Source: a virus. From it: DNA of 32,233 nt. A model generated the notes under the pieces. The model saw nothing but the letters and a program-made list of their open reading frames with translations, was not told the DNA's origin and searched no databases. Where the stretch lies: positions 1-32,233 of IMG/VR virus record IMGVR_UViG_3300030103_003269. One strand, given 5' to 3'. How positions within the stretch are numbered: position 1 is the first letter of the stretch; the number at the start of each line of letters is the position of its first letter. The position numbers and the translations under genes are program-made. Below, one piece after another: positions 1,679 through 31,673 of this stretch.

Positions 1679-1689
1679 TGATCTAAAAA

Positions 1690-1938
1690 TTATTTTTCTT
1701 CTAACATTTGTTTTCTTTTATTTTCAAATATTAAATCTTGTAAAAGTTGTTTATCAATTTTTCTTTCTTCATCACAATCATTTAATCTTTCTCTTTGCGC
1801 TTGTATTTCTTTTTCTTTACTGTCTATTAAATATCTACCAGTCCAGCCTAATCCTATTATAGCTAAAAAAAAAATAACACTAAAAGGCGATTTTAAAAAC
1901 TCTTTAAAACCTACATTAAAAATCTTTTCCTTCATCAT
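1690..1938 (-). CDS. Second spanin-like protein (membrane anchor plus charged coiled coil)
   Basis: 82 residues. A hydrophobic segment at about 17-38 is followed by a long helical region dense in Glu, Lys, Arg and Gln (residues 40-82) that looks like a coiled coil. It resembles Rz-like or bacteriocin/holin-associated proteins. It sits between the holin candidate, whose 3' end it overlaps by 23 nt, and the other anchored coiled-coil protein. Starts at M1 or M2 are both possible. With 1424-1678 it may form a two-part lysis accessory system, which is inference from gene order. Confidence 0.6.
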   Translation of the reverse strand: MMKEKIFNVGFKEFLKSPFSVIFFLAIIGLGWTGRYLIDSKEKEIQAQRERLNDCDEERKIDKQLLQDLIFENKRKQMLEEK

Positions 1939-2104
1939 TATTATTTTTTAATCCTACTAGCATTTGTAATAATGTGTATGCTATAATTAAAACTCCAGCA
2001 AAAAATTTATAAGAATTATGTTGAAATAATAAACTAATTCCTGTAAATATTGCACTACTAAATACAACTACACCAAAAAATTGTATTTCTTTTTTATTTC
2101 TCAT
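1916..2104 (-). CDS. Holin candidate with two transmembrane segments
   Basis: 62 residues with two hydrophobic stretches (about 8-27 and 33-51), a short basic N-terminus and a hydrophilic charged C-terminus. Size and topology match class II holins, which form holes in the inner membrane and time lysis. It overlaps the upstream 2094-2354 gene and the downstream spanin-like gene, as expected in a compact lysis cassette. No sequence family was recognised, so the call rests on topology and context. Confidence 0.55.
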   Translation of the reverse strand: MRNKKEIQFFGVVVFSSAIFTGISLLFQHNSYKFFAGVLIIAYTLLQMLVGLKNNNDEGKDF

Positions 2105-2354
2105 CTTCTTCTATTGGCTCACTCCACTCATCTGTTGCCATTAATAAAAGCGTTTCTTCGTGATTTAAGCATTCTATTGGTACAATAGTTTCGTCTTTTA
2201 TAAATGTAGGTTCAACACTCCATTTTAAAACAAACTTTGTTAAATCTAAACTTCTTCTTATTGTATCTTTTGAAGTTTCTCCTACTTGTGAAAAATCTAC
2301 TTTTGGTAAATCATCAATGCTTATAATAGCGTATGTTAAATTATTTTTTTTCAT
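2094..2354 (-). CDS. Conserved phage protein of unknown function
   Basis: 86 residues. It contains a VDFSQVGETSKDTIRRS segment followed by L-D-x-T-K-F-V-L-K-W, a pattern I associate with small late-gene proteins of flavobacterial phages of unknown role. No membrane segment or catalytic motif is visible, and the C-terminus is acidic. It lies between the LamG fibre gene and the holin, so it could be a fibre accessory or a lysis gene; the sequence does not decide. Confidence 0.65.
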   Translation of the reverse strand: MKKNNLTYAIISIDDLPKVDFSQVGETSKDTIRRSLDLTKFVLKWSVEPTFIKDETIVPIECLNHEETLLLMATDEWSEPIEEDEK

Positions 2355-2372
2355 TTTTTTATTTTTTTATTT

Positions 2373-3215
2373 TTAAGTTGGCACATCTGTACTATATGCA
2401 GTGCCATTTATTAAAGTTGCATCATTGCCACCACTACCGCTATCTGTTGCAGTTGTTCCGCTACCCTCTTCAAATCTGTACCAAGTTGTAGGAGCTGTCA
2501 ATCCGTTACTATTTAGGTCATTTGGCACACCACTATTATAGATAGTATCTACATCAGATTGAGTTCTAAAATCTTGTCCACTCCATATTGCGAACTCATC
2601 AATTTTACCACCGAATACACTACTTAATGATGATGCTCTTGTGCCTATATGTAATTCACTTGTTGAATTTGGTAAAGTAGTGGCTAGATAACGTCCATTT
2701 GTTGTCAAAGCAACGCTATCGAAATAGATTTGGCACTCGCTAAATGTTGGTAAACTTAAATCTATACATACTAATAAATGATGCCATTGTCCGTCGTTTC
2801 TAATTGCTCCAAGACTTGCAGATGCTCTATTAGCGTTAGTAGCACTATCAACATAAACCCAACAAGTAGTATTTGTACTTGTTTGTAGTCTTATACCTAA
2901 CTGAAAATTACTGCCACCCGAAGTACTACATAAATAACTCAAAGTATCAGACGTTGAATCTATTTTAACCCAAGCACTTACTGTGATTTTACTTTCTCCG
3001 TCTAATTCTGTGTAAGTTGAATTTGTTTCAACATAGTCATCTACGCCGTCATATTCTGTAGAATAAACATTTTCAAAAACTGCTCCACTTGTTTTTAATG
3101 CCGTATCTCCACTTGGAGAATCAGCATAAATTTTACCCCAATCAATCGTATTGTTGGTTGAACCTCTGCCCCATTCTATTGTGTTATTTACTACTCCTTG
3201 TCCCCAATCTGACAT
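2373..3215 (-). CDS. LamG/concanavalin-like tail fibre or receptor-binding protein
   Basis: 280 residues. The N-terminus repeats a short Trp-Gly unit (WGxGxxNNTIxWG) seen in flavobacterial phage structural proteins, probably a virion attachment tag. Residues about 50-225 form a Laminin_G_3-type jelly roll: FDG/YDGVDDYVE at the start, an ISAWVK-like strand, GQWHHLLV near the middle and GKIDEFAIW near the end. Such domains bind glycans, so host-surface recognition is the likely role. The C-terminal 40 residues contain IYNSGVPNDL and end DVPT, shared with the paralogue at 3243-3968. Confidence 0.8.
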   Translation of the reverse strand: MSDWGQGVVNNTIEWGRGSTNNTIDWGKIYADSPSGDTALKTSGAVFENVYSTEYDGVDDYVETNSTYTELDGESKITVSAWVKIDSTSDTLSYLCSTSGGSNFQLGIRLQTSTNTTCWVYVDSATNANRASASLGAIRNDGQWHHLLVCIDLSLPTFSECQIYFDSVALTTNGRYLATTLPNSTSELHIGTRASSLSSVFGGKIDEFAIWSGQDFRTQSDVDTIYNSGVPNDLNSNGLTAPTTWYRFEEGSGTTATDSGSGGNDATLINGTAYSTDVPT

Positions 3216-3242
3216 AATTTTTATTTTTTAATTCGTTTATAT

Positions 3243-3968
3243 TTATGGTACATCTGTTACTATATCGCCACTAACCATATTTGTCATTGTTCCGTTATTC
3301 CCTAAACTTCCATTGTCTGTAATAGTTGGGTATGTATCTCCGTCTCCATTTCGCCACCAAGCCAAAGGGTTAAGACTTGTTAAGTCGTTAGGATTGCCAC
3401 TATTGTAAATAGAAGAAATATTAGAACTTTGGTCGCTATTCCAAAATGCAACCTCGTCAATATTACCTTTAAATTCATACCCACCTGCTCTCCCTATAGT
3501 AACAATTATATTTGGAGATAAAGCAAGTGAATTTTGTCCAATATTTACATTAGTATTTATGACCTCTGTTCCGTCTAAATACATTTTTAAATCAAAGGTA
3601 TTGTCTCCATTATTCTTAGCAGAATACAAAACGTGATGCCAATTAGTATCAAAAGTTGTAGTAAATGATGCTCTCCAATTATCATTAATGCTTACTCGTA
3701 AAATATTATTTATAAATAACAATCCCAAACCTCTACCATAAGCAAAATTTGTATTTCCAAAATTAAACGGACTTTCTATTCTTGAAGATGTTCTTTTATA
3801 CCATAAACTAACAGTTTGGTCTCCTGCATAAGAAGAGCCTAAATGCGCACCTAAAGTTGTTCCACAGTCCACATAGTCATCAACTCCGTCAAAGTCAAGT
3901 GATTTCGTATTTGAAAAACTTGATGTTGCCGTTGGTCTTGCTATAATTCCGTGTGTTGCTAAATGCAT
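3243..3968 (-). CDS. Second LamG-domain tail fibre or receptor-binding protein
   Basis: 241 residues. LamG hallmarks are FDGVDDYVDCG near residue 27, NWHHVLYS, LKMYLDGTEV and GNIDEVAFWN, followed by IYNSGNPNDL and a C-terminus ending DVP. It is paralogous to the 2373-3215 product but lacks the Trp-Gly repeat N-terminus. It is separated by 3 nt from the upstream fibre gene 3972-4412, which suggests one assembled fibre. Probable role: glycan binding on the host surface. Confidence 0.8.
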   Translation of the reverse strand: MHLATHGIIARPTATSSFSNTKSLDFDGVDDYVDCGTTLGAHLGSSYAGDQTVSLWYKRTSSRIESPFNFGNTNFAYGRGLGLLFINNILRVSINDNWRASFTTTFDTNWHHVLYSAKNNGDNTFDLKMYLDGTEVINTNVNIGQNSLALSPNIIVTIGRAGGYEFKGNIDEVAFWNSDQSSNISSIYNSGNPNDLTSLNPLAWWRNGDGDTYPTITDNGSLGNNGTMTNMVSGDIVTDVP

Positions 3969-3971
3969 AAT

Positions 3972-4513: not shown

Positions 4514-5014
4514 TTATATATACCAATTTGTATTATTTACGTCTGTACTTGGGTACATATCTTCACTACTATTGGAGTTATATTCTGGAAATAAATTTGA
4601 GTTACTGCAAATGTAATCTACAAATCTTTGAGTGTAATGTTCAGCAATTCTCTGCTCACTTGCAACCAAATTATTTATTTCTTCACTACTTGCCGTAACA
4701 CTATTCTCAGCACTATGTTTATATACTCCCTTATTACTAATTGTAAAACTTGCATAATGCAAAAATTCTACCATAGCATAATGTATTAGCATTGGTTTTA
4801 GATATTTTGTTACTAAGGTCAAATAATTACCAGCTAAAGTACCAGCAATAATATCCGCTTGTATCTTCTCTAATAAATCTGTGCCAATATAATTCTGTAT
4901 ATGAGTGTCTTGTGCAATCTTAATGTGTTGAATAAATTTTGACGTATCTACGTTTCCATTCATTGAAGTGAATCGTACTATGTCTTTCCTGGAAATAATT
5001 AATGCCTCTGCCAT
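4514..5014 (-). CDS. Head-tail connector-like protein (DUF6712-like)
   Basis: 166 residues. The sequence has the pattern of the DUF6712 family of Bacteroidota phages: DIVRFTSMNGNVDTSKFIQ, then HIQNYIGTDLLEKIQ, then PMLIHYAMVEFLHYASFTI and NKGVYKH. All-helical proteins of this size next to a portal gene usually complete the head and connect it to the tail. Its start overlaps the portal stop by one base. Role inferred from family resemblance and position. Confidence 0.7.
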   Translation of the reverse strand: MAEALIISRKDIVRFTSMNGNVDTSKFIQHIKIAQDTHIQNYIGTDLLEKIQADIIAGTLAGNYLTLVTKYLKPMLIHYAMVEFLHYASFTISNKGVYKHSAENSVTASSEEINNLVASEQRIAEHYTQRFVDYICSNSNLFPEYNSNSSEDMYPSTDVNNTNWYI

Positions 5015-6822
5015 TATTGAAATCTTTTATTATTTGGGTGGTAACCTCGACCAGGGTTGGTACTGGTTTTTGGTATATCTATTGGTGCAATTTGTGCCTC
5101 TTTCCAGCCATTTGGGTTTACTATATAAGGTAACTCGCCTACAATTTCAGAACTTGCTAAGCTTTTATCTTTATAAAAACTTCCGTCAGTTTTCTTCTTT
5201 AATCTGTAAAGATTTTCTGCCCAAAAATGATAGCAATTTGGCCCACCTTTGTACTTGAATAAACTATAATTTTGACCTTTATGTCCGAACTTATTGTTAA
5301 CACCTTGAAAAGATGCCATGTCTATATCTTCTTTTCTATAACGTACACCTTTATCTGTCCTTTTCATCATATGCTGACAAAAATCTCTGCTTTTTCCAGT
5401 TTTAGATCCTTTCTTTATTTCCTCATATGAATATCTAACTTTATAAATATCCTTATCTAAAAAAGATTTTCTATTTGGATAACTTGTAATGTAATCTTTT
5501 AACTTAGTTAAATTACTTTTTTTTCTTCTTATAACTCTATTCGCCCAATCATCAATGCTTTCGTTTTCTTCATTGAAAACTCTCTTGTCTACTAATTCCC
5601 ATTCTTGCTCGTCTATGATTTCTCCGTCTAAATTATCTATTAAACTTTTTTTAGTTTCATCATTTAAGACTAATGAATTTAATTCTGTTTCAATTCCTGT
5701 TTCTTCTTCAATCACTTCTTCATCTTCGACACCTTCTAAATCTTTAAAATCTAAGGGTTGTAATGTTTTGAAATATAATTTTAATGATACATCATTGAAT
5801 GCTAAAATTTTATCTAAAGCATCTATTAAAACATTTTGAATTGGTTTTACAACCATATTGTCAAAAAGTATTGATGAATCTTTCAACTCGTCTGCGTTAC
5901 TTGAAAAACCATTTTTACTTGCTATGCCAAATAATAGTGGCGAGGTAACATTATGAGCAACCATAATTTTACGCATACACTCGTCAGCTAAGTATTGGTA
6001 ATGTTCTGGAGCATTATTTAATTGAATGTCATCAACAGTTGTCTTGCTTGTTTCATCACTATTAAAAGAAACAATGACTTTCTGCCCATTTGAGCCAGTT
6101 AATTTATTCATCACTTTTGAACTAACGATTTCTTGTTGTTCCTCTGTTGGAATTCCATTATTAAAGTTAACCACCTTTGTAGAACTAAATGAGTTCTGTA
6201 CATCATTAATTAAGTACTCGCTTATTTCTTCTTCAAGTGTACAATATGATAAGCCACCGACATAATCAACACATGAGTAATATTTCATTCCAGGTGTATA
6301 ATTGTTGAAATATAATATTTCTATTTTTTCACTACTATACCCAAATGCTGGAATTCTTTTTGGTGGAAATTTTTTTACATTTTCCCAATTATCCGAATAA
6401 TAATATCCTTCAATTTCTCCGTTTTCATTACACTTTTCAGCACCTAATAATTGAACTGGTATATGCAAAGCTTTAATAATCTTTTTTCTATCTTTTGAGT
6501 AATGTATTTGAAATGCACCTTGTCCGAGCATCTTAAAATCTAATATTACTTTTTTTAAATCTTCTGGAGAAAATAGACTAATGCTTTGAGCATACTCATT
6601 TGGCTTTTTACTCGCATCTAAGGCACTTAATCCTTTTCCATAAACCAACCTACAAATGTTATTTATTATTGCGTTATTCGTAGTTGAATTTTTATAGTTA
6701 TTTATAAGGAATTCAAAATAATCGTTGTTTTTTCCATATAAAACCCAATCTCGTCTTTTATCTTCTACAATTTGTGGTACTTCATAAGCACTTAAATTTA
6801 ATATGTGTGAGTTATTATTCAT
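5014..6822 (-). CDS. Portal protein with C-terminal F-like extension
   Basis: 602 residues. The first about 370 residues look like an HK97-type portal: YEFLINNY-like start, LVYGKGL, ISEYLINDVQNSFSSTKVVNF, HNVTSPLLFGI and a helical stem. An acidic linker (about 365-385) leads to a C-terminal region with SRDFCQHMM (478-486), YRKEDI, and YKGGPNCYHFW (524-534). That module resembles the C-terminal region of Mu gpF-like minor head proteins in these phages. The portal forms the packaging channel at one capsid vertex. It lies downstream of the capsid gene, unlike the HK97/lambda order. Confidence 0.8.
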   Translation of the reverse strand: MNNNSHILNLSAYEVPQIVEDKRRDWVLYGKNNDYFEFLINNYKNSTTNNAIINNICRLVYGKGLSALDASKKPNEYAQSISLFSPEDLKKVILDFKMLGQGAFQIHYSKDRKKIIKALHIPVQLLGAEKCNENGEIEGYYYSDNWENVKKFPPKRIPAFGYSSEKIEILYFNNYTPGMKYYSCVDYVGGLSYCTLEEEISEYLINDVQNSFSSTKVVNFNNGIPTEEQQEIVSSKVMNKLTGSNGQKVIVSFNSDETSKTTVDDIQLNNAPEHYQYLADECMRKIMVAHNVTSPLLFGIASKNGFSSNADELKDSSILFDNMVVKPIQNVLIDALDKILAFNDVSLKLYFKTLQPLDFKDLEGVEDEEVIEEETGIETELNSLVLNDETKKSLIDNLDGEIIDEQEWELVDKRVFNEENESIDDWANRVIRRKKSNLTKLKDYITSYPNRKSFLDKDIYKVRYSYEEIKKGSKTGKSRDFCQHMMKRTDKGVRYRKEDIDMASFQGVNNKFGHKGQNYSLFKYKGGPNCYHFWAENLYRLKKKTDGSFYKDKSLASSEIVGELPYIVNPNGWKEAQIAPIDIPKTSTNPGRGYHPNNKRFQ

Positions 6823-7168
6823 AAATTATAAATTCATTTGTTGATGCATTCGATTGATATACATTTTCATTAACATTAAAGTTAGCAATAACTTGATTAG
6901 TTACAAAAATTCTATCTCTATAAACTATGTCTGTGCCATTTTTAACCAATAGACGATAAAACCTATCCTCAACTAAATTAAACACAGGAGATGCTATGTG
7001 AAACGTCGCAGTAATTGATTCATAATAATCATTAGAGGAACTACTGCTAATTGTAATTTGTGTTTCTACATTTGTACTCTCATCTTTTATAAATAATCCG
7101 TCATAAGTTTTACTTCTAGGAATAAATTTAAATGATTGTGGGTTTGTATCTACTTTTAATATTATCAT
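6815..7168 (-). CDS. Structural-region protein of unknown function, led by an ECF-type promoter
   Basis: 117 residues, beta-rich by composition (FKFIPRSKTYDGLFIKDEST, then alternating strands and FYRLLVKNGTDIVYRDRIF). I recall similar short proteins beside portal genes in flavobacterial phages but know no function. Its ATG (7168) lies 12 bases after the CGTT of a promoter-like element at 7177-7198. A terminator (7234-7260) isolates it from the capsid genes, so it heads a separate late transcript with the portal. Confidence 0.7.
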   Translation of the reverse strand: MIILKVDTNPQSFKFIPRSKTYDGLFIKDESTNVETQITISSSSSNDYYESITATFHIASPVFNLVEDRFYRLLVKNGTDIVYRDRIFVTNQVIANFNVNENVYQSNASTNEFIIYE

Positions 7169-7176
7169 ACTTATAT

Positions 7177-7198: not shown

Positions 7199-7233
7199 AG
7201 AAATATAAGACTAAAATAAATTTTAGATCACAG

Positions 7234-9498: not shown

Positions 9499-9520
9499 AA
9501 TTATAATTTTACAACTATAT

Positions 9521-9707: not shown

Positions 9708-10893
9708 GATCTAAAATTAAATTTTTTAATTCCTCTATGATTTTTTTATTTAAATCTTCTTTTACTTCACTTAACTTTTCCAGCTTTTTAAGTTTACTTT
9801 CAGACCAACGCAAACCAGCTAAACCACCCCAAAGCAAATAGCTAATATTTCCACAATCATTTGTGTCAGCTTTATCATAATAAGTTTTGGCTCTACTTAA
9901 ATACGAGTACATTCTTTTTATTGTGTCTACATTCAAGGCACGCCCTTTTGACAAGTCAGCCCCTCTATTTTTTCCAACAAGAGTAGCACATTTATTGCCA
10001 TTCTTTTTGTTTAATTCCATTCCTCTTTTAGCATTATTTTTTACTGCATCTGGGTAATCTGCATATGATTCCAGGTCAGTAGAGTTTTTTATTGGAACGC
10101 AATTAGGTACTTTCTTTCCGTCTTTCATTTTAAAACCTACTTGCTCATATCCGTCCCAACAAGGTTTTTTAAAATTCACAGTTGGTATTTCTTCACTTAA
10201 TGAATGCTCTTTGCAAGGCATAAACCAAACTTTTCCCTCAAATTCGTGTTCGTGATAACTTTCGCAACCTACTTCTTTAGCAACTTCTAATGCTTTTTCC
10301 TTTGTGCTATAAGCATTTCTATCATCTATGATTGCAATATCTTCATCTACTACAATAGATTTTAATTCTTGTTTTAAATTTGATTTCTCACTAAAGTAGC
10401 CTTCTATGGAAAAGCCTTTAATTTCTCCAGCTTTTACTTTCTGCCAGACTTCTTCGTTGTCCACCTTCATAGTAATAAACCATGTGCCTTTTTCTGCTTT
10501 AAAACCATATAAAGAACTTTTATCTTTTTTTGAATCTTCTACAAGCCAACTTTCGACAACACTCATTCCTTCAATTTTTGATTCGTGTTCTATCGTAGCA
10601 TTATTTTGGTTTGATTCTTTTAAGAATAATTGACTGGCTTTACGTACAGTTTTCTCACTAAAATAAATATAATAATCTTCTTTAGTATCTTCATTACGCC
10701 TAAAAATCTGCTTATTTGGTATCAAAGCTGGCCCCATTAAAAGCCTTTTTTCTTCATTAATAGTTTTTAATTCTACTTCATGTTTTTTTAAAGCAATCCA
10801 GTCTTCTTCTATTGCTGGGTTTTCAACTACTGAAACGGCTTGTATTCCAGCTTGTTCTTCTTCTTCGTTTAATATTAATTCGATAATTTTCAT
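9670..10893 (-). CDS. XkdF-like prohead protease with two extra C-terminal modules
   Basis: 407 residues. Residues 15-170 match XkdF-type phage serine proteases: VVENPAIEEDWIA, GPALIPNKQIFR, EHESKIEGMSVVESWLVED (H103), GTWFITMKVDNEEVW and GFSIEGYF (S162), the likely His/Ser pair. Residues about 194-270 hold YHEHEFEGKVWFMPCKEH and CWDGYEQVGFKMKDGKKVPNC. Residues about 277-372 hold ADYPDAVKNNAKRGM and GLAGLRWSESKLKKL, a module also seen alone in related phages. The protease matures the prohead. Preceded by an ECF-type promoter candidate. Confidence 0.75.
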   Translation of the reverse strand: MKIIELILNEEEEQAGIQAVSVVENPAIEEDWIALKKHEVELKTINEEKRLLMGPALIPNKQIFRRNEDTKEDYYIYFSEKTVRKASQLFLKESNQNNATIEHESKIEGMSVVESWLVEDSKKDKSSLYGFKAEKGTWFITMKVDNEEVWQKVKAGEIKGFSIEGYFSEKSNLKQELKSIVVDEDIAIIDDRNAYSTKEKALEVAKEVGCESYHEHEFEGKVWFMPCKEHSLSEEIPTVNFKKPCWDGYEQVGFKMKDGKKVPNCVPIKNSTDLESYADYPDAVKNNAKRGMELNKKNGNKCATLVGKNRGADLSKGRALNVDTIKRMYSYLSRAKTYYDKADTNDCGNISYLLWGGLAGLRWSESKLKKLEKLSEVKEDLNKKIIEELKNLILDHEKKEKTNKGQK

Positions 10894-13642: not shown

Positions 13643-16117
13643 TTAAGGTTGTTGGATTACTATTGTATTTTCGCTTACTGCTCCATTTTGATATGTTTGT
13701 GTAACTAATAATTCAATGCCCTGTGTTTGGTAATCTTCATTAATTAATTTAACACTACTTTCTGTAACAATAAACTTATGCAACATTTGTGGAAATAAAG
13801 GATTGTTACTTTCGTCCATTATATACTTTTTTGAATTATTATTCGCTGGTACACATACAGAAATAATTTGTGAACTTGTAATTGTACTTGGTGTAATAGT
13901 AACTCCAGCCGTTGTAGTCGTAATTGTAGCACTCACTACATTATTATACAATGTAATAGGTACATCAACACAATTTGCACTTGGGTTAGTAGGAATCACA
14001 ACCACAGGGTTTGTTGGTCTTAAGTCCATTATTAAAGATAAATTAACTTCTCCAGAAGTTAAGTTGCTTTTCATTGAATTTATAATGTATCTTTTATCTC
14101 TAATTAAAAGCCTATCATTTAACTGCAATTTTGTTAATAATGAAATTGGAAATACACTTTTTAAATCTGTTATTCTATTTTCTAATCTATATAAATTTTG
14201 TAAATAATTAAAATAATAAGTTGCATATAAACCATTAGGTATTGCATACCATAAAAAAGTGCTTATTTCTTCTCCGAAATTTAAAGAATAATCTGTCTGG
14301 TTGTTAATTTTTAAATCTTGTCCAAAAGGAATATAATTAGTTATTGTTTGCGTTGTAGTTCCGTCATTGATTTTTATATCTGTAACTTGTTTATCATACA
14401 TATAAAACAAACATGGTTTTGGTATATAAGGCGAATAATTTTCATCTAACGCATAAGCGACTTGTGTGTCAGTTGGTGTTCCATTACTTAAAGAAAATCT
14501 TGTGCCCATTAAATTCTCAAATGGTATTTTTACCTGGAATTCGCTACCTTCATTTGGAAATGTACTTGCTAAATTTCCATAACCTTTTTGGTGAGTACTT
14601 CTAAAATTTTGATTTAAAAAACTTTTACTTTCTGCATACTCAAAATTAATTTTTTTATAAAGTGGAACTTTTTTTACTTCTATTGATTCAATATCTGTAT
14701 ATGTTGTAGTGTCATATAAATCTCCTACATTATACCAATTTTCTATGTCCTCAATTTGGTAAACATCATCATCAGTACCATAGCAAGTTAAATTGAACAT
14801 TTTTAAAATTCCAGTAAAAAAATCTTTAACTTTTATATTTGGTAAATAATTTGTAATAAAATTAACACCTGTTAAAGAAACTGCATTTCCGTCTGTTTCT
14901 CGCCATAAATCTTGGGTTTGACCTACATTGTTTAAACTATTATAAGTCAAATGTTGAGTATAATTTACTTTGCCAGTAATATTCATTGACTGTGTTGCTC
15001 TTACTTCCCAATGATAAACTCTAATATTTCCACTTCTGTCCAAAAGTGTATCTACAAAAACAATATCAATATACAAGCCACTAGCAGAACTTGGTAATGG
15101 TGGTATTTCTGCAGTTGTTTGTAAAATACCATTGACAAACATATCGACATAAATAGTTGCATTTATACTTGTAGGCAAAATTGAAACAGTTATTTTTTCT
15201 TCAATCTGTATTATAGTTCTTAATGGATGTAAAGTATGCCAATTTGAATTTAATAAAGTACCACTATTCCAATCATTATTGCCGTCCCATTGTAAAGTAA
15301 GCGTATCATTAGTATAATTAAATGGGTCTTGATTTACAAAAGGCCCCACATTTGGAAAAGATAAAGGGCCAGTTATATCTAATTTTTTTGGTTGACTAAC
15401 AAATGTATTTGTACTATTATTTTTACACCATAAAAACAACTTTTTAAATTTTTCATCATTTAAAAAATTTCCATTAAAAGTGATTCCGTATCTACTCTCT
15501 ATAGCCTCAAATATTTTAGAAACTTTAATTGCTGGAAATAAATCTGTATAATCTATTTTTCCTATTGGTGTAGAAATATCATTACTTCCAGAATCTCCAT
15601 ACGTCCACAAATCTTTGCTACTTATTAATGGGTATCTAACATCATAATCTGTGGTGTCATCTGTAATCCTATTTAAAACTTCTGTTCCTGTATAGCTATG
15701 ATCTAAAGCACTTAAATCTAAATCTGTAAGGTTTTCATCTAAAAATTTATCCTTTAATGTAGTTATATCTCCGTAAAAAGATAATTGATAACTTTCTGGT
15801 TTTCCTTTAATTAAATTGACTTTTTCTAATTGAATTTTACCACTTCTAAAAGGTGTTAAATTAATATCAATCTTAGCACTTTTTCTTTGGTTTACATCAA
15901 ATTGCACACTGCTATATGAGTAAACATCATTATTGTACCAATGATGAAAAATAGTGTTATTATTTGGAGTTGCTGGAACTGTAAAAGATTGACTAAAGTC
16001 TGAATAAACCTTGCTTATATCTTGAATGTTTTGAATAGTTGAATTTACTTCTATATTCTCATCATCAAATAAATCTAATTTAACTCCTTCGACATAAATT
16101 TGTATATTTCTTTTCAT
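13643..16117 (-). CDS. Large tail structural protein (probable distal tail/baseplate component)
   Basis: 824 residues, beta-rich. The start (MKRNIQIYVEGVKLDLFDD...FSQSFTVPATPNN) matches a family of Bacteroidota phage tail proteins that open with a strand, an LF/LNDD turn and a FS...F-x-V/L-P-x-T motif. The middle is rich in aromatic and polar residues; the C-terminal about 110 residues (from NPVVVIPTNPSANC) look like an Ig-like or BACON-like domain. Distal tail or baseplate assignment is inferred from size and position before the tape measure. Its ATG overlaps the previous stop by one base. Confidence 0.65.
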   Translation of the reverse strand: MKRNIQIYVEGVKLDLFDDENIEVNSTIQNIQDISKVYSDFSQSFTVPATPNNNTIFHHWYNNDVYSYSSVQFDVNQRKSAKIDINLTPFRSGKIQLEKVNLIKGKPESYQLSFYGDITTLKDKFLDENLTDLDLSALDHSYTGTEVLNRITDDTTDYDVRYPLISSKDLWTYGDSGSNDISTPIGKIDYTDLFPAIKVSKIFEAIESRYGITFNGNFLNDEKFKKLFLWCKNNSTNTFVSQPKKLDITGPLSFPNVGPFVNQDPFNYTNDTLTLQWDGNNDWNSGTLLNSNWHTLHPLRTIIQIEEKITVSILPTSINATIYVDMFVNGILQTTAEIPPLPSSASGLYIDIVFVDTLLDRSGNIRVYHWEVRATQSMNITGKVNYTQHLTYNSLNNVGQTQDLWRETDGNAVSLTGVNFITNYLPNIKVKDFFTGILKMFNLTCYGTDDDVYQIEDIENWYNVGDLYDTTTYTDIESIEVKKVPLYKKINFEYAESKSFLNQNFRSTHQKGYGNLASTFPNEGSEFQVKIPFENLMGTRFSLSNGTPTDTQVAYALDENYSPYIPKPCLFYMYDKQVTDIKINDGTTTQTITNYIPFGQDLKINNQTDYSLNFGEEISTFLWYAIPNGLYATYYFNYLQNLYRLENRITDLKSVFPISLLTKLQLNDRLLIRDKRYIINSMKSNLTSGEVNLSLIMDLRPTNPVVVIPTNPSANCVDVPITLYNNVVSATITTTTAGVTITPSTITSSQIISVCVPANNNSKKYIMDESNNPLFPQMLHKFIVTESSVKLINEDYQTQGIELLVTQTYQNGAVSENTIVIQQP

Positions 16118-19080: not shown

Positions 19081-20238
19081 TTATTTAATGAAATATTTTC
19101 CGTAATTAATATTACTTAATGATTGACTTTCGTGATACCTTAATGCATCAATTAAATGGTCTTTTCCACCTCTTGGCTTATTCAATCTTTTACCTGTTTT
19201 ATCGGTGTCCCAAACATACGATCTAAATTCATCAATCAAATTTTTACTACTTGAAGTAACTAAATATTCTTGTGACTGCATCAACTGAATACCAAAATTA
19301 ATACTATCTCTGCCCTTCGTTGCACCTTTAATCATTTTTCCGTTCCTTCTTATTTCTTCAATGCTTTTTGGCTCTGCTGAATCTGCGTAACAAATAATAT
19401 TTTTTTCTATTCTTTTGGCTATTTCTGAATTTACTAAATTATTCTGGTAACATATCTCATTCACAATTCTTTTATCATTCCATTTATAAACCTCAACAAT
19501 AGCAGAAGGGTCAACAGAATAACCGAAATCTAAGCCATAGCCTAATAATTTTGCATCACTTGGTATTTCATCAATTTCCTTCCAATTCTCAAAAACAACG
19601 CCTTGTAGGTTACCGATTTCCCCAAGTCCGTAAACAAGCCACCAATTACGCCAATAAGCTGATGTCTCTGCCTTTTTCTTTGCTTTTTCAATCTCCACTA
19701 CTATTCTTTCATCTAAAGCATTGTTATCTAAATAATTTAAGACTAAGAAATCTGCATCTTTATCATCTTTCAATTCTGTATGCGCCCAGAATTCTGCCGT
19801 AGGATTAAAGTCTAAAAAGACTTCACGTTTAGTTCTTATAGCAAGTTCATTATAACTTTCAAAATTTATATTATTACACTCATTGATGTAAAGTATGTCA
19901 CGTCTTGCGCCTCTTAATTTTGTGCTATCTTCTACGCTAAAAAATTCAATGTATGAGCCATTACTGAATTCGTACCTGGAAATACTTTTATTGAAATAAT
20001 TTGCATTATATCTATTTGTGTCCTTTAATATTTTTAGAAAATCTTTTAAAGCACCCCTTCTTAAATGTGGCATAGATTGAGCAACTACTGAAATTTCAAG
20101 TTCTGCAACTTTAATTGCTCTATCAATCAATACTGGTAAAATTCCATAAGTTTTCCCAGCACTTGTGCCACCTTGTATGATTTTTATTCGCTTTTTTAAA
20201 GCAAGAATTTTATTTATCGCTATCGTCCGTTGGAACAT
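19081..20238 (-). CDS. terL: Terminase large subunit
   Basis: 385 residues. ATPase: Walker A GGTSAGKT (23-30), Walker B ILYINE (115-120, catalytic E120), coupling motif FNPTAE (144-149). Nuclease: LDFGY (D237), CYADSAEP (D286), GGKDHLIDALRY (D360, D364). These are the Terminase_3-type motifs of the packaging motor, which cuts and translocates DNA into the prohead through the portal. The start overlaps the small-subunit-like gene by 29 bases. Length is slightly short for the family but both domains are complete. Confidence 0.92.
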   Translation of the reverse strand: MFQRTIAINKILALKKRIKIIQGGTSAGKTYGILPVLIDRAIKVAELEISVVAQSMPHLRRGALKDFLKILKDTNRYNANYFNKSISRYEFSNGSYIEFFSVEDSTKLRGARRDILYINECNNINFESYNELAIRTKREVFLDFNPTAEFWAHTELKDDKDADFLVLNYLDNNALDERIVVEIEKAKKKAETSAYWRNWWLVYGLGEIGNLQGVVFENWKEIDEIPSDAKLLGYGLDFGYSVDPSAIVEVYKWNDKRIVNEICYQNNLVNSEIAKRIEKNIICYADSAEPKSIEEIRRNGKMIKGATKGRDSINFGIQLMQSQEYLVTSSSKNLIDEFRSYVWDTDKTGKRLNKPRGGKDHLIDALRYHESQSLSNINYGKYFIK

Positions 20239-20543: not shown

Positions 20544-21293
20544 TTACACTCCTTTAATTGGTATTTTAATTATTGGGTTTATATCAAAATTTTTCTTTTT
20601 ATTACTTTTATTTGATTTATCAAATTTTACAATTTTATTGCCCCACTTTTTTTGTAATAAATTATTTTGTTTAATTTCTTTTTCTACATTTCTATAGTCT
20701 GCACAACCACCTTTAATTGTTGCTTGTTCACATACATAATGGTACATATTCATACGTAAATTTTTTCTATGCTTATTTAATACTTGCAAACTCATGTCAT
20801 AATCTTCCTTTAAAAAAATTTCTTCATCATAACGTAAATCATTTTTTCTATGTGCTTGAAAAGGGCCACCAATATATGATGTTAAACCAAATGGTGTGTA
20901 TTCTCTGTATGCTCCTTTATCAGCTAAACAATTTAGTCCCCAATAAACAACCTTTAAATCTTTAGCTAATTGTATTCCTTCTTCTATCATTTTATATACT
21001 TCTGATTCATTCAATTTAAAAGATTTATTGCAATTATATCTACCAAAATGTTTTATATCATCATCAATTAAAATTATGTTTTCTTCTGGTGCATGATCTA
21101 AAATAAAATTCCAAACTCTTGCTAAATTTCCTTGCACTTCATTTGGTACAACCCATAAATTTTTATGTACTTTTTGATATTCTTTTTTTTCTTTTTCCAT
21201 TACTACATAAGTAATGTCTTTTAAATATTTATGTGTTTTACAAATATCTGCTCTTTTATATGATGCTACGTAAATTTTATACATTTTTCTCAA
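20544..21293 (-). CDS. TET-associated-type glycosyltransferase (GT-A fold), possible DNA-modification enzyme
   Basis: 249 residues. KIYVASYKRADICKTHKYL at the start, NLARVWNFILDHA, LIDDDIKHFGR (D77-D79, metal/nucleotide-sugar motif), GGPFQAHRKND, LKEDYDMSLQVLNKHR and a C-terminal NPIIKIPIKGV fit the glycosyltransferases often found with TET-like or other DNA base modification genes in phages. Those are thought to glycosylate hydroxylated bases. No TET/JBP or hydroxymethylase gene is visible here, so the substrate is open and could be a virion protein. It overlaps the methyltransferase gene. M4 is an alternative start. Confidence 0.6.
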   Translation of the reverse strand: MRKMYKIYVASYKRADICKTHKYLKDITYVVMEKEKKEYQKVHKNLWVVPNEVQGNLARVWNFILDHAPEENIILIDDDIKHFGRYNCNKSFKLNESEVYKMIEEGIQLAKDLKVVYWGLNCLADKGAYREYTPFGLTSYIGGPFQAHRKNDLRYDEEIFLKEDYDMSLQVLNKHRKNLRMNMYHYVCEQATIKGGCADYRNVEKEIKQNNLLQKKWGNKIVKFDKSNKSNKKKNFDINPIIKIPIKGV

Positions 21294-21885
21294 ATTTTAA
21301 AATTCTAACTTCTCTATGTAAATCAATTCTATCTGTAACCTTATAATTTTTAAAAATTAATTCTATATCATCATCTATAAAATCGTGAAAATGAAAATGA
21401 TTGTAATGTGTTGTTTTTTTACTTGGGTAACTAATAAATAAAGTTTTAATATTTAAATTTTCAGCCATTTCATTTAAAATTTCTGGGTTTTTCAAATGTT
21501 CTATTGTTTCTAATGAAATTAAAACATCAATATAATTATTGTTTAATTCTTTATTATTTAAAAACTCTTTTATTGCATTAATATCTTTTATGTTTTTAAT
21601 ATCTAATGTTTTAAAAAATGTTTTAGAATTTTCAAAATTATTTTTTGCCCATTCTATACTTTGTAAATCAATATCAATTCCTATAATTTTATTTACGTCT
21701 GGGTTTTTACTTATAATATTTGTGCCATAACCACAACCACAACTTGCATCTAATATAACACCAGAACAATATTGTCTTAACATAGCATATCTTTCAATAT
21801 GCCGTCTATTTAATATGTCAAGTTCGATTTTATCAAGTTCATTTTTATTTATAAAAATTTGTTCTCTTACTTTTGCTTTTATCAT
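21277..21885 (-). CDS. Class I SAM-dependent methyltransferase
   Basis: 202 residues. Motif I VILDASCGCGYGT (43-55), motif II acidic IIGIDID, and a post-motif ISLETIEHL are those of Rossmann-type methyltransferases of the UbiE/Methyltransf_11-23 kind, which usually methylate small molecules or sugars rather than DNA. Neither DPPY/NPPY nor PCQ motifs are present, so base methylation is unlikely by the usual routes. Overlaps both neighbours (ParB-like and glycosyltransferase), suggesting one pathway, perhaps tailoring a sugar. Confidence 0.75.
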   Translation of the reverse strand: MIKAKVREQIFINKNELDKIELDILNRRHIERYAMLRQYCSGVILDASCGCGYGTNIISKNPDVNKIIGIDIDLQSIEWAKNNFENSKTFFKTLDIKNIKDINAIKEFLNNKELNNNYIDVLISLETIEHLKNPEILNEMAENLNIKTLFISYPSKKTTHYNHFHFHDFIDDDIELIFKNYKVTDRIDLHREVRILKFEKNV

Positions 21886-22481
21886 TTATTTAATTTATTT
21901 AAATAATTTGCACCATTTAAAACTCTGCCAATTCCTTTGCTCCACTCTTTGCCATTTCCTCTTTTGCTTTTAACAGTTTTCAAATTAAAATGAGTCTGTG
22001 CTTGTAGCCAGTCAATATCATTATCAAAATAAAGAACTACATAATTGTTACTCTCATTTAAATATTCTGAAAATTCAATTTCTTCTTCAATATCTTCTTC
22101 ATCATTTTTAAAACCTATTGGTAAATCTAATCCGTAATGGTCTAATATATCTTGCTCCCAGACATTAGCTAAAATGTCATAGTCCCATTCGCCATAGCTT
22201 AAATTATCTTTGATAATAAATTCATTCTTTTGCTCTTCTGTCCATTTATCTGCAATCTTAATAGGCACTTCTTCCAATCCAGCTTTCACACAAGCTTTTA
22301 ATCTCATATTTCCGCCTAACACTAAATATCCGTCTTTATATGTAACCACTACAATAGGTCTAGCCTCTAACATTTCTGGAAATTCCTTTATGCTATTTAC
22401 TAACTTATTGAATTTGGCTTTAGTTATTGTACGTGGGTTCTCAGGGTTTTCCTGGATTAAATATAATTTACTTTTTTTCAT
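21882..22481 (-). CDS. ParB/sulfiredoxin-like nuclease-domain protein
   Basis: 199 residues. ENPRTIT, a helix, ARPIVVVTYKDGYLVLGGNMR (GGNMR at 56-60), AGLEEVPIKI and TEEQKNEFIIKDNLSYGEWD form the ParB N-terminal domain. In phages this domain is common beside DNA or base-modification enzymes and can act as a nuclease or DNA-binding module. The C-terminal part (about 120-199) carries an acidic stretch and a strand-helix pattern of unknown fold. It overlaps the methyltransferase by ATGA and the preceding 126-residue gene by 14 bases. Confidence 0.75.
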   Translation of the reverse strand: MKKSKLYLIQENPENPRTITKAKFNKLVNSIKEFPEMLEARPIVVVTYKDGYLVLGGNMRLKACVKAGLEEVPIKIADKWTEEQKNEFIIKDNLSYGEWDYDILANVWEQDILDHYGLDLPIGFKNDEEDIEEEIEFSEYLNESNNYVVLYFDNDIDWLQAQTHFNLKTVKSKRGNGKEWSKGIGRVLNGANYLNKLNK

Positions 22482-23125: not shown

Positions 23126-23721
23126 ATTCTTATATGTTCAAAATCTTCATTAATAAAATCTTCGTAATCTTCTCCTATCGCAATTTTAATTCTTTCTTTA
23201 CAATTCTTTAAAGTATGAAATATACTAAAGTAACTTATTCCTATTTCTTTTTCTAATGTCCTAATGCTTTTTCCTGTCTGGAAATAAACTGTAAATAAAA
23301 ATTGGTCATACCATTTCCAGCTTAATATTTCATTATGTATTTTCTCTATAATTATTTCGTATTTAATATGCTTTTCCAAGCTATGATCTAAAAAAATATT
23401 TTCATTTAAACTTTTTAAATGACTTCTATTATTTGAATTTAAATAGACATCAATTAAATCTAACTTACTTAATTTTTTATAGTTTCCTTCACTGTTAATT
23501 CTCTGTTTCCTTATATTATTAATGTATGTATTCCTCAATATAAAATAAATATAACTTTTATTTAATTTTCCATTTTGAAACGCTTTTTTCCTTTCAGACC
23601 TTTCTGCTAATCTTATATAAACATCTTGTACATAATCCTCGCTAAATTCTTTTGCGCCAAAACTTCTCATTATAGCAATCCACTCTTTATGGTATTTGTG
23701 TATTTCTTCTAGCCAATCCAA
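23122..23721 (-). CDS. ECF-type sigma factor-like protein, candidate late activator
   Basis: 199 residues from a TTG start (no ATG in this part of the frame; the next Met is residue 18). Region 2-like: EWIAIMRSFG, FSEDYVQDVYIRLAE, YIYFILRNTYINNIRKQR. Region 4-like helix-turn-helix: DQFLFTVYFQTGKSIRTL, EKEIGISYFSIFHTLKN. The long linker between them is Asn-rich. It heads the late block just after a strong terminator. Four late genes carry an AAC/CGTT promoter-like element of ECF type, so it may direct late transcription; this link is inference. Confidence 0.65.
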   Translation of the reverse strand: MDWLEEIHKYHKEWIAIMRSFGAKEFSEDYVQDVYIRLAERSERKKAFQNGKLNKSYIYFILRNTYINNIRKQRINSEGNYKKLSKLDLIDVYLNSNNRSHLKSLNENIFLDHSLEKHIKYEIIIEKIHNEILSWKWYDQFLFTVYFQTGKSIRTLEKEIGISYFSIFHTLKNCKERIKIAIGEDYEDFINEDFEHIRI

Positions 23722-26441: not shown

Positions 26442-26721
26442 TTTCTAATAATTTTTTATTCATTTTTTTTAGATCCTTTACTTCTGTTTGTAATTCTAAA
26501 AGTAATTTATTACTTCGATATAAATCTCCACTCATTGACATACATTTTAAATCTAATCTATGTAATACAACTTGCACCTCTGCTAATTCATTTAAACTAT
26601 CTTCTTGTTTCTGGATTAATTCTTTTTTATGTGGGCTTAATTCTTTTAAATCATTTAATGTTTTTTGTGCTCTTAAAAAAACTTTATTCAATCCAACTTT
26701 AGCACTTATTATTTCTATCAT
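26428..26721 (-). CDS. Hypothetical coiled-coil protein (97 aa)
   Basis: 97 residues, almost entirely helical with heptad-like Leu/Ile spacing and many Lys/Glu (KTLNDLKELSPHKKELIQKQ, LLELQTEVKDLKKMNKKLLE). No family recognised. It lies between the RecA/DnaB-like ATPase (ATGA overlap) and ninG, so a replication or recombination accessory role is likely by context only. Confidence 0.6.
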   Translation of the reverse strand: MIEIISAKVGLNKVFLRAQKTLNDLKELSPHKKELIQKQEDSLNELAEVQVVLHRLDLKCMSMSGDLYRSNKLLLELQTEVKDLKKMNKKLLENATL

Positions 26722-28591: not shown

Positions 28592-28713
28592 ATATTTTTA
28601 TTAAGTATTTTTCTTTATTTTTTTTTATTATAATTTCTTTTTTTTTCTATGGATCTAAAATTTAATTCCTTTGTAAAAAATTAAAATTATGCTTAATAGG
28701 AATCATTTATTGT

Positions 28714-28905
28714 TTACAATTTCTTTAAAGGTTTTGGTGAATATCCTTTTTTATATCCTAAAAATTCAACTTGTTTAATATTATCTTTATGAATATTCAA
28801 TTTGCTGACTGCATCATCTTCTGTATTTCCATATCTTAAAGTATATTTTATTTTCCATTCATCTTTATTATTTTTTCCTATATACTTTATTTTATAAACT
28901 TTCAT
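28714..28905 (-). CDS. Hypothetical protein (63 aa)
   Basis: 63 residues. MKVYKIKYIGKNNKDEW, a repeat strand (KIKYTLRYGNTEDDAVSKLN) and KQVEFLGYKKGYSPKP look like a small alpha/beta domain. No family recognised. It overlaps the methyltransferase stop by 4 bases and is followed by a 122-base A/T-rich gap (28592-28713) that contains a TTTTAGATC site but no convincing promoter. Confidence 0.55.
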   Translation of the reverse strand: MKVYKIKYIGKNNKDEWKIKYTLRYGNTEDDAVSKLNIHKDNIKQVEFLGYKKGYSPKPLKKL

Positions 28906-29906
28906 AACTTAAATTTTTCAATTATTTTTTCTAAACATTTTACTACTATGCTATTTCCAGCTTGTTTATAAGCTTGGTTATCCGAACATTTCCAAATAAA
29001 ATTACTTGGAAAGTCCATTAATTTAAAGCACTCTTTTGGTGTTAATCTTCTTATAATATTTTTATGTAACGTGGCTTGAAAATTTTGTGCTTGAATTGTT
29101 TGTGCAACTTTTTTTCCAACTCGACCTCGCCTTGTTTTAGAATTTGGTAAACTAAAATTAAAACTATCTCCTTCATTGACATTTTCAAAACCTTTTAATG
29201 TAGCACTTTTTATTTTTATTCCTTTTCCTTCTTTATTAATTATTAAGTCAATAATATCTTTGTTTCTTAAAATGTATTTTAAATCAAATTTTTCTTCTAA
29301 TAAATTACTTAAATTTTTAGTTAATCTTTCTTCTTTTGGAAATTGAAAAAAATTATCTTCATCATCTCTAATTCCTACTATAAAAATTCTTTTTCTATTT
29401 TGAGGTATATTAAAATCTTTAGCATTAATTATCTTGTAATATATATGATAAGGAACTGCATTTTCATCAGCAAATAAAACTGGTAAGCCATTTATACTTT
29501 TTCCACCTAAATAATTTAACCATTCTTTAAAAGTTCTTCCTTCATCAATACTTGTTAAGCCTTCTACATTTTCAAAAATAAAATATCTTGGCTTATTCTT
29601 TTTTATAAATTGATGACTATTAAAAAATAAAATTCCTCTTTCATCTTCTTTACCTAATCTTTTTCCAGATTGACTAAATGCTTGGCATGGTGGCGAAGTC
29701 ATATAAATATCTAAACTTTCTTTAGGTATTTTACGTTTATAAACATCAGTAGGAAAATTATTTGGCTTTTCATGATTTAATAAATAAGTTTCTCTTGCAT
29801 ACTTATCCATATCACAAGCAAAACAATTCACATAGCTTATGCCTAATCTCTTTAAACTGAATTCGAAAGCACCAACACCGCTAAAGTCACTACCTATTCT
29901 TAGCAT
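28902..29906 (-). CDS. DNA (cytosine-5) methyltransferase
   Basis: 334 residues from the preferred ATG at 29906 (MLRIGSDFSGVGAFEFSLKR). Motif I DFSGVGAFE, IV TSPPCQAFS (C74), VI ENVEG (112-116), VIII QNRKRIFIVG (169-178), IX RRLTPKECFKLMDFP, X QAGNSIVV are all present. It methylates C5 of cytosine in duplex DNA; the recognition site cannot be read from sequence. No restriction endonuclease is next to it, so it probably shields phage DNA. A 17-residue upstream extension to 29957 would overlap the preceding gene and lacks family sequence. Confidence 0.88.
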   Translation of the reverse strand: MLRIGSDFSGVGAFEFSLKRLGISYVNCFACDMDKYARETYLLNHEKPNNFPTDVYKRKIPKESLDIYMTSPPCQAFSQSGKRLGKEDERGILFFNSHQFIKKNKPRYFIFENVEGLTSIDEGRTFKEWLNYLGGKSINGLPVLFADENAVPYHIYYKIINAKDFNIPQNRKRIFIVGIRDDEDNFFQFPKEERLTKNLSNLLEEKFDLKYILRNKDIIDLIINKEGKGIKIKSATLKGFENVNEGDSFNFSLPNSKTRRGRVGKKVAQTIQAQNFQATLHKNIIRRLTPKECFKLMDFPSNFIWKCSDNQAYKQAGNSIVVKCLEKIIEKFKL

Positions 29907-30081
29907 CTTTCCTTTTACTATATAAATCAATATTAAAATTATCCCAGAAACCAACAATTTTATTTAGCTTTTCTATCTGCTTTTTTTCATTTACATCAAT
30001 CAAAACATTTTCTTTGTTTTTTAATTTTCTATATTTCTTTTTTCCTAAAACTATCAATCTTATTTTATCTTGTATTCTCAT
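29890..30081 (-). CDS. Hypothetical small basic protein (63 aa)
   Basis: 63 residues, basic: MRIQDKIRLIVLGKKKYRKL, then VNEKKQIEKLNKIVGFWDNF and a basic end. Overlaps the methyltransferase start by 17 bases and the upstream gene by ATGA. No family recognised; helical with one hydrophobic patch. Confidence 0.55.
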   Translation of the reverse strand: MRIQDKIRLIVLGKKKYRKLKNKENVLIDVNEKKQIEKLNKIVGFWDNFNIDLYSKRKDAKNR

Positions 30082-30404
30082 AATTTATGTATTTTATTTT
30101 TTAGATCACTACAAATATTTTGTCTTTTATTATATGTTTTTCCTCTTAAATTTATTTCTTTTTCTTGTAACTTTCTACGTACTCTTGTAATGTTATCAGC
30201 ATTAGTAAAATTATTATTTTTATATGCAGTTAGAAAATCTCTAAAAGAAAAATCTAATTCATCAATCTTTTTACTTTCATAATACCAAAACCAGCAGACC
30301 AATTCATTATCGTTATCTTTTGTGCTTGGGTGTTCTACAAGTAAAAGTCTTACTTTATCTTTGATTTTATTCAAATCATTAAATATTATATTTGTATCAT
30401 TCAT
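30078..30404 (-). CDS. Conserved phage protein with RVRRKLQE motif (108 aa)
   Basis: 108 residues. LVCWFWYYE, FLTAYKNNNFTNADNITRVRR, KLQEKEINLRGKTYNKRQ form a pattern common in Bacteroidota phage early regions (T-R-x-R-R-K-x-Q-E-x-x-x-x-L-R-G). Probably a winged-helix DNA-binding protein, but function is unknown. It contains one of the TTTTAGATC sites near its 3' end (30104). Confidence 0.65.
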   Translation of the reverse strand: MNDTNIIFNDLNKIKDKVRLLLVEHPSTKDNDNELVCWFWYYESKKIDELDFSFRDFLTAYKNNNFTNADNITRVRRKLQEKEINLRGKTYNKRQNICSDLKNKIHKL

Positions 30405-30406
30405 AA

Positions 30407-31084: not shown

Positions 31085-31086
31085 AT

Positions 31087-31383
31087 CTATTTATTTATTT
31101 TGGTTAGTAATTCTTTTGCGCAATCATATACTTCATATTCATTATAAAGATTTTTGATTCCAATTAATTTTTCTTCACTTCTGATGACTTCAAAAATCTC
31201 ATCTTTATGAAAATTATTATTTTTAATTTTTACCTTATCTCCTATATTAAAACCATTATAGCTAATTTCATTTTTTAATTTATCCATAATAGCAAGGCAC
31301 TCTTGGTATTCGACAAAAGTTAGAGTTGAACTATTTAAAAATTCCTCTAATTCTTTTATTATTTTTTCTTCTCTTTTATTCAT
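31087..31383 (-). CDS. Hypothetical protein with SH3-like/KOW-type segment (98 aa)
   Basis: 98 residues. An N-terminal helical pair (MNKREEKIIKELEEFLNSST, FVEYQECLAIMDKLKNE) precedes YNGFNIGDKVKIKNNNFHKD, EIFEVIR, a short beta-barrel-like motif. It is the first gene of the early block after the non-coding region, so it should be expressed first. Function unknown. Confidence 0.55.
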   Translation of the reverse strand: MNKREEKIIKELEEFLNSSTLTFVEYQECLAIMDKLKNEISYNGFNIGDKVKIKNNNFHKDEIFEVIRSEEKLIGIKNLYNEYEVYDCAKELLTKINK

Positions 31384-31444
31384 ATTATTTGCTTTTTAAA
31401 TTTAATTAGTTGAATTTTTCAACCTTATATATTCTTATTCGAAA

Positions 31445-31475
31445 CAATATAATAAAAAGTTTCATTTATTCACAA
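31445..31475 (-). promoter_or_regulatory. Candidate early promoter (Bacteroidota-type, weak match)
   Basis: Minus strand TTG (31475-31473), 21 nt, then TATATTG (31451-31445), about 60 bases before the first early ATG (31383). This loosely fits the Bacteroidota -33/-7 pattern (TTTG...TAnnTTTG) but the -7 box is not exact. It overlaps the DnaA-box-like cluster, so DnaA-like binding could control it. Confidence 0.35.
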
Positions 31476-31502
31476 TTATTTCACAAAAAATATTTTTCCA
31501 CA
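31466..31502. promoter_or_regulatory. DnaA-box-like repeats, candidate replication origin
   Basis: Three repeats in the same direction on the plus strand: ttattcaca (31466-31474), tatttcaca (31477-31485) and ttttccaca (31494-31502). The first fits TTATnCACA exactly, the third differs by one base from TTATCCACA, the second is weaker. The surroundings are extremely AT-rich, as at duplex-unwinding elements, and the phage encodes a DnaA domain IV-like protein (28145-28591). Confidence 0.5.
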
Positions 31503-31519
31503 ATAAATTGTTAAAAACA

Positions 31520-31594
31520 CTATTTAAAAACCTTGTTTCTACGGCCTTTATAGTTGCTGGATTTCTTCACTTCTTGACTTTTAGGTGTTACCAT
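31520..31594 (-). CDS. Possible 24-aa basic peptide in the non-coding region
   Basis: ATG at 31594: MVTPKSQEVKKSSNYKGRRN then KVFK and TAG. It lies in the GC-richer segment between the late terminator and the early promoter. The composition (Lys, Arg, Ser) is unlike random AT-rich translation. Too short to prove; the same DNA could be a structured leader or small RNA instead. Confidence 0.3.
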   Translation of the reverse strand: MVTPKSQEVKKSSNYKGRRNKVFK

Positions 31595-31673
31595 ACTAAA
31601 GCACGTAAGAAAGTCTCTTAAATCGAATGCCAGACACCTTAGAATTAATTTTAAAGATTTTAGATCACTGCAT

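Follow-up and report, generated by a model that had tools for sequence, protein, structure and literature searches.

Phages are known to shed restriction sites, and one survey found GATC under-represented in all 46 phages with hosts that encode corresponding enzymes (PMC6286503). The viral genome analyzed here (hereafter the window, 32,233 nt) resembles such cases in that a palindromic Type II site is strongly depleted, independently of codon usage, and that the probable host class carries GATC-cutting systems; ordinary avoidance, however, does not predict that all survivors lie in one asymmetric octamer, TTTAGATC. Overlapping methylation of another specificity would spare only sites inside a longer target, and two patterns in relatives of this phage—CCAG within CCAGG and AGCT within TTAGCT—resemble such protection, although in the window we infer the exemption from genome sequence alone. 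A third comparison is with Sau3AI, a GATC endonuclease of Type IIE, for which a second site must be bound (PMC1892151). Such an enzyme would account for the way the family's GATCs shun close neighbors, but it leaves the TTTA flank unexplained. Among dispersed words, the octamer is like Chi sites in being short, asymmetric, dispersed in both orientations, and over-represented in the phage; unlike them, it is not over-represented in any of 149 Bacteroidia genomes, is not G-rich, and contains a restriction word. The stoperators of mycobacteriophage L5 likewise occur as many asymmetric copies along a genome, some of them fitted into the interval between a stop and a start codon, whereas 8 of our 12 octamers are intragenic and their orientation is mixed.

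Distribution of GATC in the window and its close relatives

How strictly is GATC confined to the octamer? A whole-genome script count returned 12 GATC, all within TTTAGATC and none elsewhere, at exactly the positions that the first-pass annotation had reported. Its finer claims held as well: seven octamers lie on the minus strand and five on the plus strand, 10 of the 12 extend to TTTTAGATC, and the base after the octamer is A in eight cases, C in three, G in one, and never T. The survivors are thus confined to one extended sequence, and no GATC follows any of the 12 sequences one change away from the TTTA flank. Finding 12 of 12 sites in a single flank carries a corrected P near 1e-15, and TTTAGATC was the most extreme among 300 depleted-word tests over relatives.

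The depletion is real. The genome is expected to hold 78 GATC by composition and 42 by a maximal-order Markov model, and its coding sequence holds 8 against 48.3 +/- 5.5 under codon shuffling (z about -8)—a depletion beyond codon and composition effects. The earlier expectation of near 80 is high beside the Markov and codon-shuffled figures. Among palindromic tetramers, only CCGG is proportionally rarer (0 observed vs. 6.3 expected). The octamer itself, by contrast, is not depleted, though all other GATC are absent: C follows TTTAGAT in 12 of 30 cases here and in 24 of 125 in GATC-normal relatives. Low-order Markov models predict 2.0-2.7 copies of TTTAGATC where 12 are found, and GATC-normal relatives carry 4.1 per 32 kb. 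Coding sequence has 8 vs. 4.3 by codon shuffling (P = 0.05), about 2.4 kb of noncoding sequence has 4 vs. 0.1-0.2 expected, and the 9-mer TTTTAGATC occurs 10 times vs. 0.84 (Markov order 2). Set against pure neutrality, the sites look two to three times too frequent.

Four of the 12 octamers are intergenic and eight lie in genes. The intergenic copy at 1680..1687 (minus strand) sits between a gene's stop and the ATG at 1678 and is missing in the relatives L089, G5, and G6; those at 7222..7229 (plus; retained in L089, lost in L098) and 31659..31666 (plus) each adjoin a terminator-like hairpin, and the fourth is at 28652..28659 (minus). Within genes, the copy at 5401..5408 (plus; 602-aa gene 5014-6822) is conserved in L089, and that at 15700..15707 (minus; gene 13643-16117, tail region) is shared with G5 and G6, which are more distant. 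The octamer at 9708..9715 (minus), at the end of gene 9670-10893 and touching a small gene's ATG at 9707, is lost in L098, where a new one lies 45 nt off. The copy in the terminase large subunit gene (19220..19227, minus) is conserved in L010 and missing in other relatives, and the one in a TET-associated-glycosyltransferase-like (TAGT) gene (21095..21102, minus) is lost in L010. At 23385..23392 (minus; sigma-factor-like gene 23122-23721), the octamer is conserved in L010 and lost in L295, where TGTAGATC is present 17 nt off; that at 26468..26475 (plus; gene 26428-26721) is also gone from L295, where a new one has appeared about 180 nt off. The last intragenic copy lies at the end of gene 30078-30404 (30100..30107, plus).

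Does the rule extend to close relatives? The comparison gave a split answer: the rule is strict in the near-identical L009 (5/5 GATC in the octamer) and holds in L010 (2/2) and L098 (1/1), but it is relaxed in L089 (2/4), L295 (1/2), L011 (1/2), and L012 (0/1, with CTTAGATC). Octamers also arise: one in L098 formed de novo by a single A-to-G change, from TTTAAATC to TTTAGATC, and L009 has an extra copy where the window reads TTTAGTTC. The losses at 7222 in L098 and 21095 in L010 have no replacement octamer nearby. Close relatives other than L009 hold 7 octamers in about 34.5 kb, near neutral density, and site turnover in L010, L089, L098, and L295 rules out a fully conserved positional function. 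L090, considered as a host-revealing prophage, combines a window-like part with phage DNA that is unrelated and is probably an assembly chimera.

Probable restriction avoidance and a proposed lineage-specific exemption

GATC loss by itself is ordinary in this phage family: avoidance is family-wide, with many relatives holding 0 GATC vs. dozens expected and others holding normal counts. Several partly depleted relatives retain GATC mainly in a flank of their own that differs by lineage (AGGATC, GGATC, or RCGATC). AGGATC makes up 24 of 33 GATC in G022, GGATC 16 of 16 in G035, and RCGATC most of the survivors in G021 and G048. Other depleted words show similar exemptions, with CCAG present as CCAGG in 28 of 39 cases in G6 and AGCT as TTAGCT in 14 of 15 in L101.

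We put at roughly one-half the probability that restriction avoidance plus a lineage-specific exemption, probably conferred by longer-site modification, explains the GATC pattern. Selection against GATC-specific cutting (of the Sau3AI or DpnII type) in the host range would have purged the phage of GATC, with this lineage tolerating the word only after TTTA. Resistance would most likely come from modification of one strand of that GATC by an enzyme, of the host or the phage, that recognizes a longer asymmetric sequence (about TTTAGAT or TTTAGATC). Exempt sites would then drift, arising and vanishing with a density near neutral or a little above it, as every other GATC is removed. We infer both causes, restriction for the purge and modification for the exemption, from sequence. 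The first-pass annotation had offered two options, a GATC threat with longer-site protection and a dispersed functional word; the former fits best, given avoidance throughout the family, the different flank-restricted exemptions seen in relatives, and the turnover of exempt sites between close relatives, and the latter is less favored. Against the exemption stand the 12 octamers where about 4.1-4.5 would be neutral, an excess that comes partly from the four noncoding sites, and a spacing of the sites that is more even than chance would give. Moreover, T is favored one base beyond the octamer (10/12) and absent on the other side, which an exemption alone does not predict unless the target is longer.

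Which enzymes might be involved? Genomes of the class Bacteroidia, the probable host class, carry true Sau3AI + C5 methyltransferase (MTase) operons and Dam + DpnII operons: 6 of 198 exceeded the cut-off for the DpnII family and 8 of 198 for the MutH/Sau3AI family, and the matches in the inspected cases lie in MTase operons. The window itself encodes a C5-cytosine DNA methyltransferase (28902..29957, minus; PF00145, E = 2e-67), a candidate protective modifier. It shares 50-62% identity with C5 MTases from related phages, which range from no GATC to normal GATC content, and it was rejected as a relative of M.Sau3AI, to which it has just 23-31% identity over part of the protein. Other genes encode the TAGT-like protein (20544..21293, minus; PF20691, E = 8e-14), a Class I methyltransferase-like protein (21277..21885, minus; PF13847 and PF08241), and a ParB N-terminal-domain protein (21882..22481, minus; PF02195, E = 8e-8). 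The TAGT cassette was discarded as the cause, as TAGT-carrying relatives span zero to normal GATC; so was a phage-borne MTase as a general cause, as G022, with its AGGATC sites, has no canonical MTase motif. The C5 MTase family also occurs at every GATC level, and a phage-borne cause is thus not supported. Across the relatives compared, MTase genes showed no link to the GATC flank. A search for an enzyme with this 8-base target found none, and we know of none that targets TTTAGATC; nor did the papers searched mention this octamer or describe GATC avoidance with survivors limited to one flank.

Possible dispersed functional words and two-site enzymes

Could TTTTAGATC(A) instead be a dispersed functional site? 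Even spacing and the noncoding excess leave room for such a word, which a protein of the phage or its host would bind and which would be required at intervals of about 2-3 kb for genome organization, packaging, replication, or transcription control; restriction would strip every other GATC while selection for the word keeps these. We consider this unlikely, though the strongest of the alternatives. The smallest gap between octamers is 1,452 (P about 5e-5 by simulation) and the CV of spacing is 0.46 (P = 0.004), falling to 0.32 with the extra L009 octamer, which sits in the largest gap. Among 119 8-mers with similar counts, the octamer comes first by both measures, and comparison with 407 similarly frequent words gives empirical P of 0.0025 and 0.012. 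Its surplus in noncoding DNA, the excess of TTTTAGATC, and the nearby replacement of some lost octamers in L098 and L295 point the same way. However, both the spacing and the noncoding tests were picked after the data were seen, positions are not conserved, density is near neutral in close relatives besides L009, and the 7 octamers of G5, a genome without GATC avoidance, are not evenly spaced. The octamer also occurs in both orientations, and the word is enriched in none of 149 Bacteroidia genomes, which leaves the Chi-like recombination site proposed earlier unsupported: TTTTAGATCA reaches at most about 15 per Mb there vs. roughly 200 per Mb in the phage, a comparison in which the host may be unsampled.

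Other site types fared no better. L5-type stoperators fail on placement (4 of 12 octamers intergenic) and orientation (7 to 5), and no repressor or integrase was recognized among the proteins scanned. A parS-type centromere does not fit octamers that are spread at gaps of 1.45-6 kb rather than clustered, and only the ParB N-terminal-domain gene was seen. Promoter elements are ruled out by occurrence in both orientations and inside genes, and the upstream element that the phage does repeat differs in sequence (AGCGTTATATAA). Gene-start positions do not explain the even spacing, as few octamers lie near starts. A slightly more doubtful proposal is that positive selection maintains TTTTAGATC(A) as an evenly spaced mark of this lineage, at about one per 2.7 kb, which a dedicated protein reads or modifies; the GATC core would be kept, although it is otherwise strongly selected against. 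Other lineages of the family may use GATC-containing marks of their own (AGGATC, RCGATC).

It is less probable still that the restricting enzyme is two-site (Sau3AI-like) and cuts TTTAGATC poorly owing to its flanks, so that widely spaced poor sites survive unmodified. Surviving GATCs are indeed anti-clustered in depleted relatives (Fisher P = 1.4e-10 at O/E <0.3; 0.11 at O/E >0.9), as is no other palindromic tetramer, with a shortfall of GATC pairs mainly below 50-200 bp in partly depleted genomes. This family-wide avoidance of close neighbors, a new observation, fits enzymes that need two bound sites to cut, such as Sau3AI, homologs of which occur in Bacteroidia. The window's gaps, however, exceed 1.4 kb, far beyond the range of repulsion in relatives, and flanks usually affect restriction cutting much more mildly than an absolute four-base requirement would. 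Finally, that a fully purged lineage is regaining GATC in T-rich context by mutation or codon-pair bias, its strict octamer partly a small-number coincidence, is very improbable given the single flank of all 12 sites and the zero counts of its one-change variants, even though TTTAAATC is one change away, as in L098, and TTTAGATC is moderately favored even in the GATC-normal G5 (6 coding vs. 3.2 by codon shuffling).

If TTTTAGATC(A) were a functional mark, it would add a new type of dispersed signal to those of phage genomes. If exemption by longer-site modification is correct, the surviving sites show, from sequence alone, what a second, unseen DNA modification recognizes, and such specificities could be readable from many uncultured phages. 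Two-site restriction enzymes, for their part, would have left an evolutionary footprint in the family-wide anti-clustering of GATC.

GATC survives in the window in one context

How strict is the confinement of GATC in this phage genome? On recount, the 12 GATC positions of the first-pass annotation were matched exactly: all 12 lie within the octamer TTTAGATC (a TTTA flank joined to the GATC core), seven on the minus strand and five on the plus strand, with T just outside the octamer at 10 of 12 sites and T after it at none. The strong avoidance that it had claimed was also borne out, with 8 coding GATC sites observed versus 48.3 ± 5.5 under codon shuffling. We also looked for the 12 versions of the TTTA flank that differ by a single base, and the window has none of them. 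In 300 flank-restriction tests, covering depleted 4- and 5-base words and the longer relatives, the most extreme result was TTTAGATC in the window (corrected P near 1e-15). The confinement is real and far beyond chance. C follows TTTAGAT at 12 of 30 occurrences in the window versus 24 of 125 in GATC-normal relatives; thus, the octamer is not depleted, whereas all other GATC is.

The two ends of the window (bases 1-135 and 32099-32233) match at 97% identity, which marks it as a whole or almost whole phage genome of about 32.1 kb, circular or terminally redundant. By terminase gene, it is related to Flavobacterium phages and to many uncultured ones. In one 52,016-base contig, L090, 8.4 kb of window-like DNA is fused to DNA from an unrelated phage, in which the large terminase differs; this contig is probably an assembly chimera joined at a shared LamG-like repeat.

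Other words are near-absent from the window's coding sequence (observed/codon-shuffled: CCATC/GATGG, 1/37; GAAGC/GCTTC, 1/28; AAATCC/GGATTT, 1/30), and CTAG occurs 10 times versus 44 in codon-shuffled controls. CCATC is a methylation motif reported for marine viral genomes (PMC9516812). Over-represented words follow the pattern ASACGRA (GACGGA/AGACGGA in the window; AACACGAA, AAAGACGAA or ACACGGA in several relatives), perhaps because codon choice shifts when words with GATG and CATG are avoided. A repeated element (7159-7201, 9503-9545, and 10884-10926) that contains AGCGTTATATAA or a near match to it lies upstream of three genes; it is probably a promoter or leader motif of the phage itself.

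GATC avoidance and spacing across the phage family

GATC avoidance is an ordinary trait of the whole family: many relatives have zero GATC over 10-20 kb, and others have normal or raised counts. In a published survey, 46/46 phages whose hosts encode corresponding enzymes showed under-representation of GATC (PMC6286503). The expected threat exists in genomes of the class Bacteroidia, the probable host class: of 198 genomes, 6 had DpnII-family enzymes over the cut-off and 8 had proteins of the MutH/Sau3AI family. In the examples inspected, true Sau3AI homologues (NCBIfam equivalog, PDB 4pxg) adjoin C5 methyltransferases, and DpnII adjoins Dam.

Across 61 nonredundant contigs of the family (G022, G043, G047, G048, G017, and others), surviving sites in GATC-depleted contigs were spaced more evenly than chance in all three depletion bands (Fisher P = 1.4e-10, 7.9e-5, and 1.9e-5). 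GATC-normal contigs (observed/expected above 0.9) had no excess evenness (Fisher P 0.11), and no other palindromic tetramer was anti-clustered in these 61 contigs. The pairs lacking are mostly those closer than 50-200 bp, a range that the window's own GATC gaps exceed. Since Sau3AI must bind a second GATC to be active (PMC1892151), the family-wide anti-clustering resembles the footprint that two-site restriction would leave.

Site turnover and the octamer as a possible functional word

Octamer sites turn over among relatives. L098 (94.5% identical) has lost two of the window's sites, 7222 and 9708, and a single A-to-G change has created a new one 45 nt away from the second; the near-identical L009 has an extra octamer where the window has TTTAGTTC. 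The octamer rule, exclusive in the window, is relaxed in more distant kin (GATC inside the octamer: L089, 2/4; L295, 1/2; L011, 1/2; L012, 0/1).

Could TTTAGATC be a functional word, as the first-pass annotation offered? Its frequency in the window is two to three times neutral estimates, four octamers lie in about 2.4 kb of noncoding sequence versus 0.1-0.2 expected, and no two neighboring sites are closer than 1,452 bp (simulated P about 5e-5), with the extra L009 site falling in the window's largest gap. The bias toward T outside the octamer and against T after it is likewise at odds with simple neutrality, as is TAGATC lying 17 nt and 180 nt from two lost sites in L295. However, these tests were picked post hoc, on data already seen, and close relatives except L009 have about neutral octamer density (7 in about 34.5 kb); we therefore consider a functional word rather unlikely.

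Restriction avoidance with longer-site protection as the favored explanation

The reading that we favor, the other option first proposed, is restriction avoidance in which modification at a longer site exempts the octamer. The phage would have lost GATC by evading restriction, and octamer GATCs would be exempt through a host-borne or phage-borne modification, an exemption read from sequence patterns. Several partly depleted relatives also keep GATC mainly in one flank, differing from the window's TTTA: AGGATC in G022 (24/33), L087, and L235; GGATC in G035 and L159; and RCGATC in G021 and G048. Likewise, CCAG survives mainly as CCAGG, a target of the well-known CCWGG methylation, in G6 (contigs L230 and L231; 28/39), AGCT as TTAGCT in L101 (14/15), and AAGCT as AAGCTA in G021 (28/32). 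Such one-flank survival is what would be seen if another modification, one whose target is longer, shields the sites it overlaps.

The window encodes one C5 methyltransferase (28902..29957, minus strand; PF00145). Because its homologues (about 50-62% identity) occur in relatives at every GATC level, and G022 has flank-limited survivors yet no recognizable methyltransferase, the source of the protective modification is no less likely to be a host enzyme than a phage one. Viral methylation in ocean viromes has been judged mostly host-derived (PMC9516812).
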